Assembly (NCBI GenBank): GCA_021796215.1
Contig: JAJYOK010000022.1
Coordinates: 1 to 50,848, forward strand
Direction: 5' to 3'
From: Bacteroidota bacterium
Lineage (GTDB): Bacteria; Bacteroidota; Ignavibacteria; UBA10030; UBA8401
DNA: 50,848 nt
The notes below the pieces were generated by a model. The model saw nothing but the letters and a program-made list of their open reading frames with translations, searched no databases and had not been told where the DNA came from. Shown in pieces: positions 2,354 through 36,036 of this stretch (the stretch's first letter is position 1; each line of letters begins with the position of its first letter). Position numbers and translations under genes: made by a program.

Positions 2354-2380
2354 ACCGGCAGTGCATCAGTTTCACTTCTG

Positions 2381-2408
2381 CGTCATTCCGGCGAAAGCCG
2401 GAACCCAG
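2381..2408. repeat. Dispersed palindromic repeat, copy 1
   Basis: CGTCATTCCGGCGAAAGCCG followed by GAACCCAG is a short stem-loop unit of the GTCATTCC-type extragenic repeats found in many bacterial genomes. A related pair lies at 29760-29842. Confidence 0.7.
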
Positions 2409-2544
2409 GAATTTGAGACACTACCGCCAAACCATATCAATGAAAGCTTGTTTCTCTCACAGACTCTTCTTGTCTTTCTGGCACTGTTTGCTTAACTTTC
2501 TCTGGCGCAAATGGAAGACCTTCCACAACATACCCAGAGGCGGT

Positions 2545-29333: not shown

Positions 29334-29765
29334 TTATTGGTAGGTTGTGAATGAATTTTTGACAGGCACGCCGTTGAATGCATCTTTTGGAAAAGTGATG
29401 TGCCACAGATCTGACGCGCCGTCGTCAAGAATCTTCAAATAAAAATTGTTCTTGCCCTCACGTTCAACAAGCACGTGCGTTTCCGCAGGTGCTGCACCGC
29501 CCATGCACGGATTCGGTTTCACAAATCCGGAAATCGAAACGACTGCGGTGTCGCCATTCCATTGCTGCGAGACACGAATCGAATAGCCGAAGCACGGAAG
29601 AAAATCGAATGTGCGAAGCGAGAGAACGGCGTTCCCATTAACTTTCTCAACGTGAAGCAGATAATAATTCGGCTGCGAAGATGCTGTAGTTACAAATACA
29701 AACGATGAAATAATTGATATTACAGAGAGCGACTTCTTGGACAACCAATACCACAGTGACGTCAT
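29334..29765 (-). CDS. Small exported protein of unknown function
   Basis: The open frame reaches 29897, but its first ~45 residues include WIPAFAGMT, the translation of the GTCATTCCCGC palindromic repeat, so the start is probably at 29765 or the TTG a few codons on. About 143 residues, with a signal-like segment (SLSVISIISSFVFVTTASSQ) and no family I recognise. Two Cys (in LPCFGY and NPCMGG) could pair. It sits 15 bases downstream of paaF on the same strand. Confidence 0.6.
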   Translation of the reverse strand: MTSLWYWLSKKSLSVISIISSFVFVTTASSQPNYYLLHVEKVNGNAVLSLRTFDFLPCFGYSIRVSQQWNGDTAVVSISGFVKPNPCMGGAAPAETHVLVEREGKNNFYLKILDDGASDLWHITFPKDAFNGVPVKNSFTTYQ

Positions 29766-29842
29766 TCCCGCGAAAGCGGGAATCCATTTTCTCGGGTTAA
29801 TTCTTGTAATTAGATTCCCGACAAAAGCGTTCGGGAATGACG
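29760..29842. repeat. Pair of dispersed palindromic repeats in inverted orientation
   Basis: CGTCATTCCCGCGAAAGCGG followed by GAATCCA at 29760-29786, and an inverted, looser copy ending TTCGGGAATGACG at 29812-29842. The two can form a larger stem. A further copy lies at 2381-2408. Confidence 0.75.
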
Positions 29843-29893
29843 TACCCCTTGTTTTGTGTAAGTTTACAAACCGAAATATTTTCCTTCTTGTTT

Positions 29894-30931: not shown

Positions 30932-31111
30932 ATGATACAAGGAACTTACATATGGAATCTATCCAACGGACTTGTCGCCCACCCCCTTTTTCTCTTTGCG
31001 CTTATTCCCAATTATTATTTATCAACTTTATCTGGCTACAAATATTTTTATCTGTCAGCCTTAAAAATCCATTTCTTTATGAAAGGAAAATTTTATGAAA
31101 TCGGAATATAA
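30932..31111 (+). CDS. Possible small ORF overlapping the AIPR start
   Basis: 59 codons from ATG 30932 to TAA 31109-31111, overlapping the next gene by 17 bases. The product is hydrophobic and aromatic-rich (VAHPLFLFALIPNYYLSTL). No Shine-Dalgarno is visible, and no family is recognised. It may be a leader or chance. Confidence 0.25.
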   Translation: MIQGTYIWNLSNGLVAHPLFLFALIPNYYLSTLSGYKYFYLSALKIHFFMKGKFYEIGI

Positions 31112-32258
31112 ATTCCAAGTTGAAGCTCTTCGTAAACTCCCCGATCCTGTTAATCCAGAAAAATGGGAACGTTACTATGCTATTTGTAATGTGAAAAATC
31201 TTCCAGACGATTTTCCAATGGAAACCAACCCTAGAAAACAAAACCTTGGGACTAAAGTCGCAAAGAAAATACATGATGGATTAACTGGGGAAGAAACTGG
31301 GCAGATGTTCCATCTTTTAAACAGGGGGATATTGTTGTCTGCTGAAAATGTCGCCTTCAACAACTCGAACAATGAAGTCACTATTTTAATGTCAAACCAC
31401 GAAGTACATGGTTTAGTTGATGGTGGGCATTCATATAAAATTATTTTGGATAATAGGTCCGAATTAACAAGAGAACAATTCATAACCATAGAAATTCTGA
31501 AAGGGATTCACGATGATTTCCAAGAGATTGCTGGCGCACGAAATACTTCTGTTCAGGTAAAAGAAAAAAGTCTTGCTGAACTTGAAGGGAAACTGGGCGT
31601 AGTTCATCAAATAGTAGCAAGCGAACCGTTTGCTCAAGATATTGCCTATGTTGAAAACGATGACAAACCAATTGACGTTCAGGAAATTATCTGTCTATTA
31701 ACAATATTCCATAATGAGTTGCATGCACATTCCCATCCAGTTTATACTTATTCTTCGAAGGGTCGTGCTTTACAAGTTTATTTGGAAAACAATGACTCTT
31801 ACAGGAAACTGATTCCGGTATCGAACAAAATTTTCGCGTTACACGATCATATTAAAAATACTATGGGAGATGTTTACAATAAACAGGGCGGAAATTTTGG
31901 CAATTTAAAGGAAATTGGATATAGTAAGGGCAGAAGGAAATGGCCTTTGCTTTTCTCTCCAAGAAAAAATGGAGCTGAAATCATAAAAATTCAGTATGAT
32001 GTTCCTTCGGGCTTTGTTTACCCGCTACTTGGCGCCCTTCGTTTTCTGTTATCGTACTCAAAAGAAAAAGGAAGTTATGAGTGGAAAACTGATCCAATCG
32101 AATATTATAATAATTCAGTTGGAGAGAAACTTGTAACGCTAACTTTTGACGCAAGTACCGAGCTCGGTCGAAACCCCATGGCTGTCGGGAAAAGCTCGAG
32201 GCATTGGGAGGGCCTGTATAATTATGTAGCTGCTACTTTCCTTCAACAGAAAAAATGA
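31095..32258 (+). CDS. AIPR-family protein (abortive infection phage resistance type)
   Basis: 387 residues, SD GAAAGGA. The central part has the AIPR pattern: FHLLNRGILLSAENVAF (usual FxxxNNGI), a VHGLVDGGHSYKIILDN block (usual NGxQT), then FITIEILKGI and AGARNTSVQVKEKSLAEL (usual ARNTQxxVKxxDL). AIPR proteins include the abortive-infection gene of a lactococcal plasmid and are often found in defence islands. The biochemical activity is not established. It is flanked by metabolic genes, is AT-rich, and has its own promoter and terminator, consistent with a single-gene acquired cargo. GH in place of GQ in the central motif is a notable deviation. Confidence 0.72.
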   Translation: MKSEYKFQVEALRKLPDPVNPEKWERYYAICNVKNLPDDFPMETNPRKQNLGTKVAKKIHDGLTGEETGQMFHLLNRGILLSAENVAFNNSNNEVTILMSNHEVHGLVDGGHSYKIILDNRSELTREQFITIEILKGIHDDFQEIAGARNTSVQVKEKSLAELEGKLGVVHQIVASEPFAQDIAYVENDDKPIDVQEIICLLTIFHNELHAHSHPVYTYSSKGRALQVYLENNDSYRKLIPVSNKIFALHDHIKNTMGDVYNKQGGNFGNLKEIGYSKGRRKWPLLFSPRKNGAEIIKIQYDVPSGFVYPLLGALRFLLSYSKEKGSYEWKTDPIEYYNNSVGEKLVTLTFDASTELGRNPMAVGKSSRHWEGLYNYVAATFLQQKK

Positions 32259-33406: not shown

Positions 33407-34435
33407 TTAATTATTCCGGAAGTTCTCTTCCCCATGTTCAGGCTCGTGCATAGCGGACGGAGTATCAAAAGAAATGGAATAGATCGTCATTCCGCGCATC
33501 ACAGGAAGAATGCGCAGCGTATGCTTTGCCAGATCATTGCCGCGAACAAGATAAACCAGCTTCGGCTCATCAAGCTCCACGAACGATTTCCCGCTTCCGT
33601 CAATCATCACGTTGCTGCCAATTTTATCCGCCGGCACGGAAGCATTATCCAAGCGGAGACGAACAACGGCATTGGGCTGTTCCGAGCCCATCACTGCATT
33701 CACATCGCTGCCGGAAAAGCTGAATGCGACATAGCCGCCGTTTTCCTCGCCGCAATATTCAAATGAATTTTTTCCGGCGCGCCAAACTCCCTGCGCATAA
33801 AATTTTCCTTCAACATACACGCCGGGATCGGTGTAATGCGCGGGAAGCTCAGGACTGTAACCTTCAACATTGCCGAGTACGCCGTGAAGATAGCCGGTCT
33901 GCATCGCCGGAATCGGAACCGATGGACGGTCAGCCGCTTTTTGCACGATGCCGAATAACGGAGGAAGCGTTCCGCGGTAACCGGCATCTCTAAGCAGCGC
34001 TTGAATGGAACGCTCAAGATGTTCATAGCCGACGTCGCCCGTATGAACGGCGTACAAAAGATTTTCGCGGTCTATCAAAAACATCGTCGGCATTTCCTGC
34101 ACGCGATAGGCATCCCACATTGCCCGCGTGTTATCCGTAGCCACCGCAAAATGAAGATCGAGCTGATGAACGGCTTCTTCGACGCGGCGCGGTTCTTTTG
34201 CAAAAGAAAATTCCGGCGAATGAATTCCGATCACCGTCAATCCCATGTCGGCATATTGCCGGTGAAACGCTTCAGCAATGTGGACAGCGCGAAGCGAGGA
34301 TTCCGAAGTGAAATCCCAAAACACAAGAAGCACTACGCTCCCCTGTAGCGCTTGTAGAGACTGTGATTGAGAATTAAACCAGAAATCTGCGTAAATTTCC
34401 GGCGCGTGAAGCGTTCGTGTCGTCATCTGTTTCAT
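33407..34435 (-). CDS. Thioredoxin-fold protein without CxxC, DipZ C-terminal-like
   Basis: 342 residues, no signal peptide. Residues about 10-150 are a TlpA/AhpC-like thioredoxin fold (VVLLVFWDFTSESSLRAVHI, VIGIHSPEF, VQEMPTMFLIDRENLL with the cis-Pro). The usual WCxxC is WDFTSESS, so no redox cysteines exist there. Residues about 185-330 resemble the carbohydrate-binding-like module following the thioredoxin domain in DipZ proteins (GKFYAQGVWRAGKNSFEY, GYVAFSFSGSDVNAVMG). Likely a non-redox binding or scaffold protein; role unknown. Confidence 0.75.
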   Translation of the reverse strand: MKQMTTRTLHAPEIYADFWFNSQSQSLQALQGSVVLLVFWDFTSESSLRAVHIAEAFHRQYADMGLTVIGIHSPEFSFAKEPRRVEEAVHQLDLHFAVATDNTRAMWDAYRVQEMPTMFLIDRENLLYAVHTGDVGYEHLERSIQALLRDAGYRGTLPPLFGIVQKAADRPSVPIPAMQTGYLHGVLGNVEGYSPELPAHYTDPGVYVEGKFYAQGVWRAGKNSFEYCGEENGGYVAFSFSGSDVNAVMGSEQPNAVVRLRLDNASVPADKIGSNVMIDGSGKSFVELDEPKLVYLVRGNDLAKHTLRILPVMRGMTIYSISFDTPSAMHEPEHGEENFRNN

Positions 34436-34490
34436 GGTAGAAATATAAAGAAAGAAGGAAGGAAGTGCAAAAATTTTGTATCTTTCTGGA

Positions 34491-34580
34491 GTGAATTATG
34501 TTAAACAATTTCGCAAAAGAGGCAAACAGATTCCCGTCAAAAATGACCCGCTGCCTTTATTTCTGAAAAAGGAGGAGTGA
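34491..34580 (+). pseudogene. Short remnant frame upstream of the ydeI-like fragment
   Basis: GTG 34491 to TGA 34578-34580, 29 codons (VNYVKQFRKRGKQIPVKNDP, then LPLFLKKEE). It ends with a GTGA overlap onto the GTG of the ydeI-like fragment and may be the end of a lost upstream gene. No family recognised. Confidence 0.3.
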
Positions 34581-34670
34581 CTGAGACGCTCAACGGATAC
34601 AATTCCTGTCCTGCTGATGAAACACCGGAAAGCTTGGGCAGCACGGTTGAAGAAGAATTACACTGCATCA
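34577..34670 (+). pseudogene. 5' fragment of a ydeI-like gene, partial duplicate
   Basis: Bases 34617-34669 match 35404-35456 (start of the conserved region of the intact ydeI-like gene) at 48 of 53 positions, then similarity stops abruptly. Upstream, GGAGGA and GTG 34577 begin a frame TETLN that joins the conserved IPVLLMKHRKAWAA only after a one-base shift near 34595. It is thus a broken 5' end of a second ydeI copy. Confidence 0.75.
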
Positions 34671-35333
34671 AACATTATTATTCTACTTTTTTGTTTACAT
34701 AGTATTATGTTTGCACAAAGTGCTTTTCTGGAAGACAACCAGAATGCAACAGCTATCTCTGCGGGCTCAGCCCTCAACAAAGATGCTTTTTCTGTCGCAG
34801 GCACAATGGCGTTTTCGATAAAGGGCAGATTTGACATTCGATTAACATTAGGAGAAATTTTTTATTCTGAGATCCATTATTCAGGTACAGCTTTTGCCCC
34901 CACGTTCGAATTTCAAATCGTGAAGAGTACCTCTGGGCATCCTGTGGCAATCGCTGCAGGCTTTTCAGCCGAAGTGGCAACGTTCACTGATAACTACAAC
35001 TCTCAAAATGAAATATCAACAGCTGATTTTTCTCTCTTTGGAAATATTTACCACAACTATTCCCTTGGCAAAGGAGTAATCGTACAGCCCACATATGAAT
35101 TGCATTATACGAGAGGCTTGACTCAGTCCCATGAGGTTTCTGGTAACTACTTTGGTATTACCTATCAATCCTCATCGCAAACGACAGAAACAAACCTTGA
35201 ATTGTGGCTGCATATTGTTGGGCTGACTTTTTCTTTTAAAACATCGCCGTCAACTCAACTTCTTGTTTCTCCTTCCATTTCGATGACAAGTCAGATTACA
35301 ACGTGGGATGCAGAATTAGGAATAATATTTTAG
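34617..35333 (+). CDS. Chimeric outer-membrane beta-barrel-like protein with a ydeI-derived N-terminus
   Basis: 238 residues. The first 18 residues (MKHRKAWAARLKKNYTAS) equal the start of the adjacent YdeI-like protein. They are followed without a break by a signal-peptide core (NIIILLFCLHSIMFAQ) and about 200 residues of alternating polar/apolar strands (GTMAFSIKGRFDIRLTLGEI, FGNIYHNYSLGKGVIVQPTY, ending WDAELGIIF) typical of a small porin-like barrel. The borrowed segment supplies the start codon and a basic n-region. No other in-frame start precedes the hydrophobic core. It ends 35 bases before the intact ydeI-like start. Function unknown. Confidence 0.65.
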   Translation: MKHRKAWAARLKKNYTASNIIILLFCLHSIMFAQSAFLEDNQNATAISAGSALNKDAFSVAGTMAFSIKGRFDIRLTLGEIFYSEIHYSGTAFAPTFEFQIVKSTSGHPVAIAAGFSAEVATFTDNYNSQNEISTADFSLFGNIYHNYSLGKGVIVQPTYELHYTRGLTQSHEVSGNYFGITYQSSSQTTETNLELWLHIVGLTFSFKTSPSTQLLVSPSISMTSQITTWDAELGIIF

Positions 35334-35368
35334 CCTCAACTGTTCCCCTCAATTTGGAAAAGACATCA

Positions 35369-35950
35369 ATGAAAGACACCTTAAACAATATTCCAATCGT
35401 TTCGATGAAACATCAGCAAGCTTGGGCAGCATGGTTGAAGAAGAACTACACTGCATCTGCGGGCGTTTGGTTGAGATTTTATAAGAAAGATTCGGGCGCG
35501 GTTTCCATTTCACACAATGAGGCTTTGGATGAAGCGTTGTGCTACGGCTGGATTGACGGACAATTACAAAAGTATGATGAACAATCGTGGCTCCAAAAAT
35601 TTACGCCGCGAAGAGCAAAAAGCATCTGGTCGAAGAGAAATGCCGAGCGCGCTTTGCAGTTGATAAAACTCGGCAGAATGAAACCGGCGGGGCTTAATGA
35701 AATAGAAAAAGCGAAAACTGACGGCAGATGGGAACGAGCGTATGATTCGCCGGCGAAGATGACTTTCCCCGACGATTTTCTTAAAAAGCTTTCCAAAAAT
35801 AAAAAAGCTTTAAATTTTTTCGAGTCGCTTAACAAAGCAAACAAATATGCCATTGCGTGGCGTTTGCAGACCGCGAAGAAGCCCGAGACGCGGCAAAAGC
35901 GGATGGTGCAAATACTCGAAATGCTCTCACAAGGTAAAAAGTTTCACTAA
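35369..35950 (+). CDS. YdeI/OmpD-associated family protein
   Basis: 193 residues from ATG 35369 (MKDTLNNIPIVSMKHQQAWA). Family blocks AWAAWLKKNYTASAGVWLRF, ALDEALCYGWIDGQ, WLQKFTPRRAKSIWSKRN, ANKYAIAWRLQTAKKPETRQ and the C-terminal KRMVQILEML. This family is linked to polymyxin or bacteriocin tolerance and outer membrane homeostasis in enteric bacteria; the mechanism is unknown. The 5' end of this gene is partly duplicated at 34577-34670. Confidence 0.88.
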   Translation: MKDTLNNIPIVSMKHQQAWAAWLKKNYTASAGVWLRFYKKDSGAVSISHNEALDEALCYGWIDGQLQKYDEQSWLQKFTPRRAKSIWSKRNAERALQLIKLGRMKPAGLNEIEKAKTDGRWERAYDSPAKMTFPDDFLKKLSKNKKALNFFESLNKANKYAIAWRLQTAKKPETRQKRMVQILEMLSQGKKFH

Positions 35951-35956
35951 ACTCTG

Positions 35957-36020
35957 ATGGGATTGATGGATTATTGGAATAGTGCTTCGTTTTCCATCAA
36001 TCCATTAATCCACTAATCCA
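35957..36020. repeat. Imperfect inverted repeat of the GGATTGATGGATT type, copy 3
   Basis: GGGATTGATGGATTATTGG on the left and CCATCAATCCATTAATCCAC on the right form an imperfect stem between two plus-strand genes. Same family as 24678-24760 and 26374-26432. Confidence 0.6.
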
Positions 36021-36036
36021 GAACTTGGGTTACATT

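Follow-up and report, generated by a model that had tools for sequence, protein, structure and literature searches.

Apparent replacement of the 5' end of a probable outer-membrane barrel gene by ydeI-derived DNA in a member of the Ignavibacteria

Results

Gene content of the locus

The window analyzed here is a stretch of 50,848 nucleotides from a Bacteroidota bacterium of the Ignavibacteria (contig JAJYOK010000022.1, assembly GCA_021796215.1), in which a thioredoxin-like gene, an ORF for a probable barrel protein and an intact ydeI-like gene follow one another (Table 1). The barrel ORF encodes a signal-peptide core, NIIILLFCLHSIMFA, with a proposed cleavage site between FA and Q, and its identity as an outer-membrane barrel is probable, judged by the signal peptide, the domain matches of its homologues and a terminal Phe. 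Among 8 homologues, 3 matched OMP_b-brl (best E = 3e-4); for the window protein there was only a weak Autotransporter match below the cut-off (E = 0.02), and the AlphaFold model, made from a two-row alignment, had a pLDDT of 35 and a fold that was not usable. No relatives of the barrel were found in viral contigs. Elsewhere in the window there is an AIPR-family gene (31095-32258; PF10592, E = 1e-21), a type of gene associated with abortive phage infection, and short repeats at 29760-29866 and 35961-36021 that have many copies in the related genomes G001 and G002.

Table 1. Features of the barrel-ydeI locus, in window positions
Feature	Position	Strand	Basis
Upstream thioredoxin-like gene (AhpC-TSA / Thioredoxin_10)	33407..34435	-	Domain matches; syntenic in G001
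Intergenic DNA still matching G001, ends ..AAAATTTTGTATCTT	34436..34488	+	blastn to 34480; by eye to 34488
Foreign segment, at most ~180 nt	34489..34670	+	G001 alignment; no similar DNA found in databases searched
29-codon open tail VNYVKQFRKRGKQIPVKNDPLPLFLKKEE and stop, overlaps GTG as GTGA	34491..34580	+	Possible 3' end of gene preceding donor ydeI
GTG, probable former start of ydeI copy, now +1 out of frame	34577..34616	+	Codon scan; DNA similarity not significant
ydeI-derived head, gives MKHRKAWAARLKKNYTA(S); candidate starts ATG 34617, TTG 34647	34617..34669	+	48/53 identity
Chimeric barrel ORF, 238 aa; native part from 34671	34617..35333	+	Homologue alignment, profile search
Intact ydeI-like gene (OmdA domain)	35369..35950	+	Domain match
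Divergent patch in ydeI; its first 53 nt and the barrel head form the repeat	35405..35525	+	Comparison with G002

The barrel head is a partial copy of the ydeI 5' end

In a pairwise comparison the head of the barrel ORF aligned without gaps to positions 35405-35457 of the intact ydeI-like gene, and a longer ungapped repeat of 68 nt (34602-34669 and 35390-35457, start-to-start spacing 788) was 84% identical. The duplication is clear: blastn against the whole genome of the window returned the repeat at E = 8e-15 and gave no third copy, and its local score of 106 compares with a maximum of 57 among 200 shuffles. Alignment, blastn and shuffles thus all bear out the first-pass annotation, which had pointed to this likeness. 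Past 34669 the similarity to ydeI ends, and the signal-peptide core and probable barrel continue in frame. Only the first ~30 ydeI codons are copied; the OmdA domain occupies residues 131-189, and a domain search found none in the chimeric barrel. The OmdA / YdeI-OmpD-associated proteins (PF13376) are the source family of the head and the family of the intact downstream gene, but the chimera itself is without their domain.

Upstream of ATG 34617 the relationship is less direct. An AGGAGG at 34570-34575 precedes the GTG at 34577-34579, and the distance from GTG to ATG is 40 nt, vs. 36 nt in intact ydeI, so that the two frames differ by one, just as the first-pass annotation had described for an upstream ribosome-binding site and GTG. 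From this GTG a 41-codon reading frame overlaps the barrel start and runs to 34702. Here the likeness to ydeI is seen only as peptide in two frames, the start codon followed by TETLN, a +1 shift and IPVLLMKHRKAW; in the peptide alignment with one frame change, GTG-TETLN, the shift and TIPVLLMKHRKAW stand against MKDTLNNIPIVSMKHQQAW of ydeI. Of the direct repeat of about 90 bases that had been proposed, the 68 nt at 84% stood, while the 36-40 nt 5' of the ATG were not significantly similar to their ydeI counterpart as DNA (p = 0.17). The head carries a further change: at W22, where 33 of 33 YdeI proteins have Trp, the barrel head has Arg, which suggests that the head is no longer held as YdeI. 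With its GTG frame-shifted and its invariant Trp now Arg, the ydeI-derived piece is, by its sequence, decayed as ydeI.

Related barrel genes lack the ydeI-derived head

We searched 100 relatives for the barrel (E <= 0.01) and found it in 11 genomes besides the window's own, two of them of the same genus. In both G001 and G002 it stands directly upstream of ydeI, and in G001 it lies between the thioredoxin-like gene and ydeI, as in the window. The barrel is thus in its ancestral place and the ydeI piece is the newcomer. By blastn, G001 aligned to the window over 33409-34480 and again from 34671 on; the ~180 nt between these flanks (about 34481/34489 to 34670) are unrelated to G001, which has at this site ~36 nt comprising the barrel's own ATG and first five codons. 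The foreign piece of ~180 nt consequently took the place of ~36 nt that included the native barrel start. In G001 that start reads ATGAAATCTCTGCCT followed by AATATTATC, at the point occupied in the window by the ydeI piece and then AACATTATT; ATGAAATCTCTGCCT leads straight into AATATTATCGTTCTG, the counterpart of AACATTATTATTCTA in the window. Microhomology at the right junction, compared with G001, was at most one base by eye and is not informative.

The barrels of the same genus begin with short native heads, MKSLPNII... and MKSAFFTLI... (MKSAFFTLII in G002), the homologues in G013, G004, G038 and G028 each have their own short head, and the one in G093 also shows no head of the MKHRKAW type. 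The search for a related barrel gene without MKHRKAW was accordingly successful, this N-terminus being absent from all seven homologues (0/7), and sharing of it among homologues, which would have spoken against capture of the start, was not seen. In an eight-row barrel alignment the extra head residues occur in the window row alone, and the barrel-family profile matches the window from 34659, no further back. Homologues without MKHRKAW and a profile match of this extent identify the ydeI-derived head as the derived state, on the alignments at hand, with the chimera in one genome only among those compared.

The surroundings of the gene differ between relatives in other ways. G001 has a separate MITE-like insert further upstream of the native barrel start, in the same intergenic region (L044:4495-4625). 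This element spans ~130 bp and carries terminal inverted repeats (GTAGTGTTACAGTTT), with AAAATTT as possible target repeat. Its matches number 44 in G001 and 5 in G002; the genome of the window has 8, of which the one at window 2367-2422 is partial. The G093 homologue has a frame break inside the signal-peptide region (L046, about 2407-2480). In G002 the thioredoxin-like gene is on another contig and the DNA 5' of the barrel is different (contigs C146, C128), which suggests that the locus is prone to rearrangement.

The usual start codons 5' of the signal core are all ydeI-derived

Downstream of the in-frame stop at 34578, ATG, GTG or TTG codons occur in frame at 34617, 34647 and 34707 only. 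The last sits at the cleavage region, and starting there would remove the signal core. Since 34617 and 34647 are the only usual starts 5' of the core, translation of the barrel should begin within ydeI-derived DNA, barring a rare start codon. A start at ATG 34617 would give a signal peptide of 33 residues with a net charge of +6 before the core, and one at TTG 34647 a peptide of 23 residues (+2), compared with 20 residues (+1) in the G001 counterpart. Together with the homologues that have no such head, this speaks, at the level of sequence, for the first-pass proposal that the barrel borrows its ATG from a ydeI copy, and so for a probable capture of the gene start. Over the whole of its divergence from relatives the barrel shows purifying constraint (dN/dS of 0.18-0.23), an average mostly over time before the event.

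The intact ydeI carries a divergent patch

Compared with G002, the intact ydeI is 94% identical over bases 1-36, 74% over 35405-35525 and 94% over the remainder (Fisher p = 1.3e-8). The patch of ~120 bases begins where the repeat begins and is likely, from this contrast, a recombination tract; in two comparisons with G001 no mosaic contrast was significant. Over 35458-35525 the window is the outlier vs. G001 and G002, and the first 53 nt of the patch are also variable between these two (70%). The barrel head is closest to the local ydeI (91%), with 74% to G002 and 79% to G001 (over 38 nt). A patch that starts at the repeat and a head nearer to the patch than to relatives suggest that a divergent ydeI met the locus and left two traces, the head and the patch, and possibly the patch could be an event separate from the change of the barrel head.

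Search for a donor

The open tail within the foreign segment, which includes KQFRKRGKQIPVKNDPLPLFLKKEE, matched no Pfam family and no relative. An overlap of tail and start codon as GTGA is the arrangement typical of an operon joint. Among plasmids, phages and 395 genomes of the phylum there was no DNA similar to the foreign piece, no donor closer than the local ydeI was found in these, in viral contigs or in one genome-contig scan, and a degenerate pattern for the ydeI head had no match in viral contigs. Families of comEC and dprA are present in all three genomes.

Discussion

Taken together, we consider it highly likely that a piece with the 5' end of a divergent ydeI recombined into the barrel start and that the barrel is now read from the captured start. 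An ancestral barrel with its own short signal-peptide head would have stood just upstream of ydeI, as in the relatives. The incoming short piece, probably with the tail of a preceding gene in addition, would have displaced the barrel's own start codon together with some five codons, and the junction, which is in frame, would allow reading from ATG 34617 or TTG 34647 inside the ydeI-derived stretch, whose basic residues may act as n-region of the unchanged signal core, so that the barrel product would be made and exported. The route may have been recombination with a divergent ydeI, perhaps an illegitimate recombination with homology on one side.

The order of ydeI head, barrel and ydeI is also the expected remnant of a tandem duplication of the barrel and the ydeI 5' end, followed by near-complete deletion of the first barrel copy and fusion of the ydeI end to the second, and the repeat partner is indeed local and the closest sequence known. 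We find this history rather unlikely, as the DNA 5' of the shared stretch is unlike the 3' end of the window's barrel and the intergenic DNA (p = 0.74) and the ydeI N-termini differ (TETLN.TIPVLL vs. KDTLNNIPIVS). According to the first-pass annotation, a second ydeI copy had received the barrel ORF, or the ORF had come with flanking repeats. Direct repeats do flank the ORF, but the barrel has the same place in G001 and stands beside ydeI in G002, no leftover 3' half of a second ydeI is seen, and none of the relatives compared was found to have two intact copies of ydeI at the locus, as that proposal led one to look for; synteny speaks against the insertion, to which we give almost no credence. 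That two strains were wrongly joined at the ydeI repeat during assembly might be suspected in a single genome in 44 contigs. This is very improbable, given a junction that is not at an exact repeat shared with the barrel, a frame that is kept and a head with private changes (W to R, frame shift) instead of an exact copy.

A real fusion may on the other hand be untranslated or barely so, if the insertion broke the barrel gene and the intact frame is a recent leftover. There is no Shine-Dalgarno motif and little A before ATG 34617, so translation of the barrel could be weak, and the strongest SD-like site serves the out-of-frame GTG, whose frame overlaps the start. However, an SD motif precedes only 7 of the 29 long ATG-started ORFs in the window (their starts not being curated), 220 codons downstream of the in-frame junction are open, the n-region is still basic and the signal core is intact, which makes loss of translation, to our judgement, fairly doubtful. 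If replacement of the 5' end did yield a functional gene, then N-terminal codons of a non-exported protein may have become, in a single step, a working start and a strongly basic (+6) Sec n-region, the barrel gene being re-started by one short recombination event with export kept and the head since changed from W to R toward its new role; this we put forward tentatively, as somewhat short of an even chance.

The kind of event is already known, as 5'-end shuffling or, in a wide sense, terminal reassortment, and the locus is a new example. Type III effectors undergo terminal reassortment (Stavrinides, Ma and Guttman 2006; recounted in PMC2668190 and PMC7406222), in which the shuffled N-terminus is a secretion signal; as far as those accounts describe it, the likeness is that one bacterial gene lends its 5' end, start and N-terminus included, to the body of another as a head. 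Unlike there, the head at our locus derives from a protein in which no export signal is recognised and replaces the n-region only, the native core being kept. In homology-facilitated illegitimate recombination (PMC3240628), also proposed for immunity arrays of Vibrio cholerae (PMC5361080), homology anchors one side, the other is joined illegitimately and gene pieces are left beside intact homologues. A gene piece beside its intact homologue is what we see, and the ydeI patch is consistent with such a process, although no donor was found in our searches, microhomology was not demonstrable and one genome is concerned here. Mosaic natural transformation brings in several short donor segments close together (PMC13344027), which resembles the two short foreign-looking stretches, barrel head and ydeI patch, within about 1 kb; in contrast to that system, transformation is here putative, the comEC and dprA families being present. 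Either one-sided-homology recombination or mosaic transformation would fit.

Chimeric genes of such a kind will be mis-set by start calling that is based on homology. The locus illustrates from nature, on a small scale and with an outgroup that has kept the unaltered state, how a piece of less than 200 bases can swap the translation start and the signal n-region between unrelated neighbouring genes.
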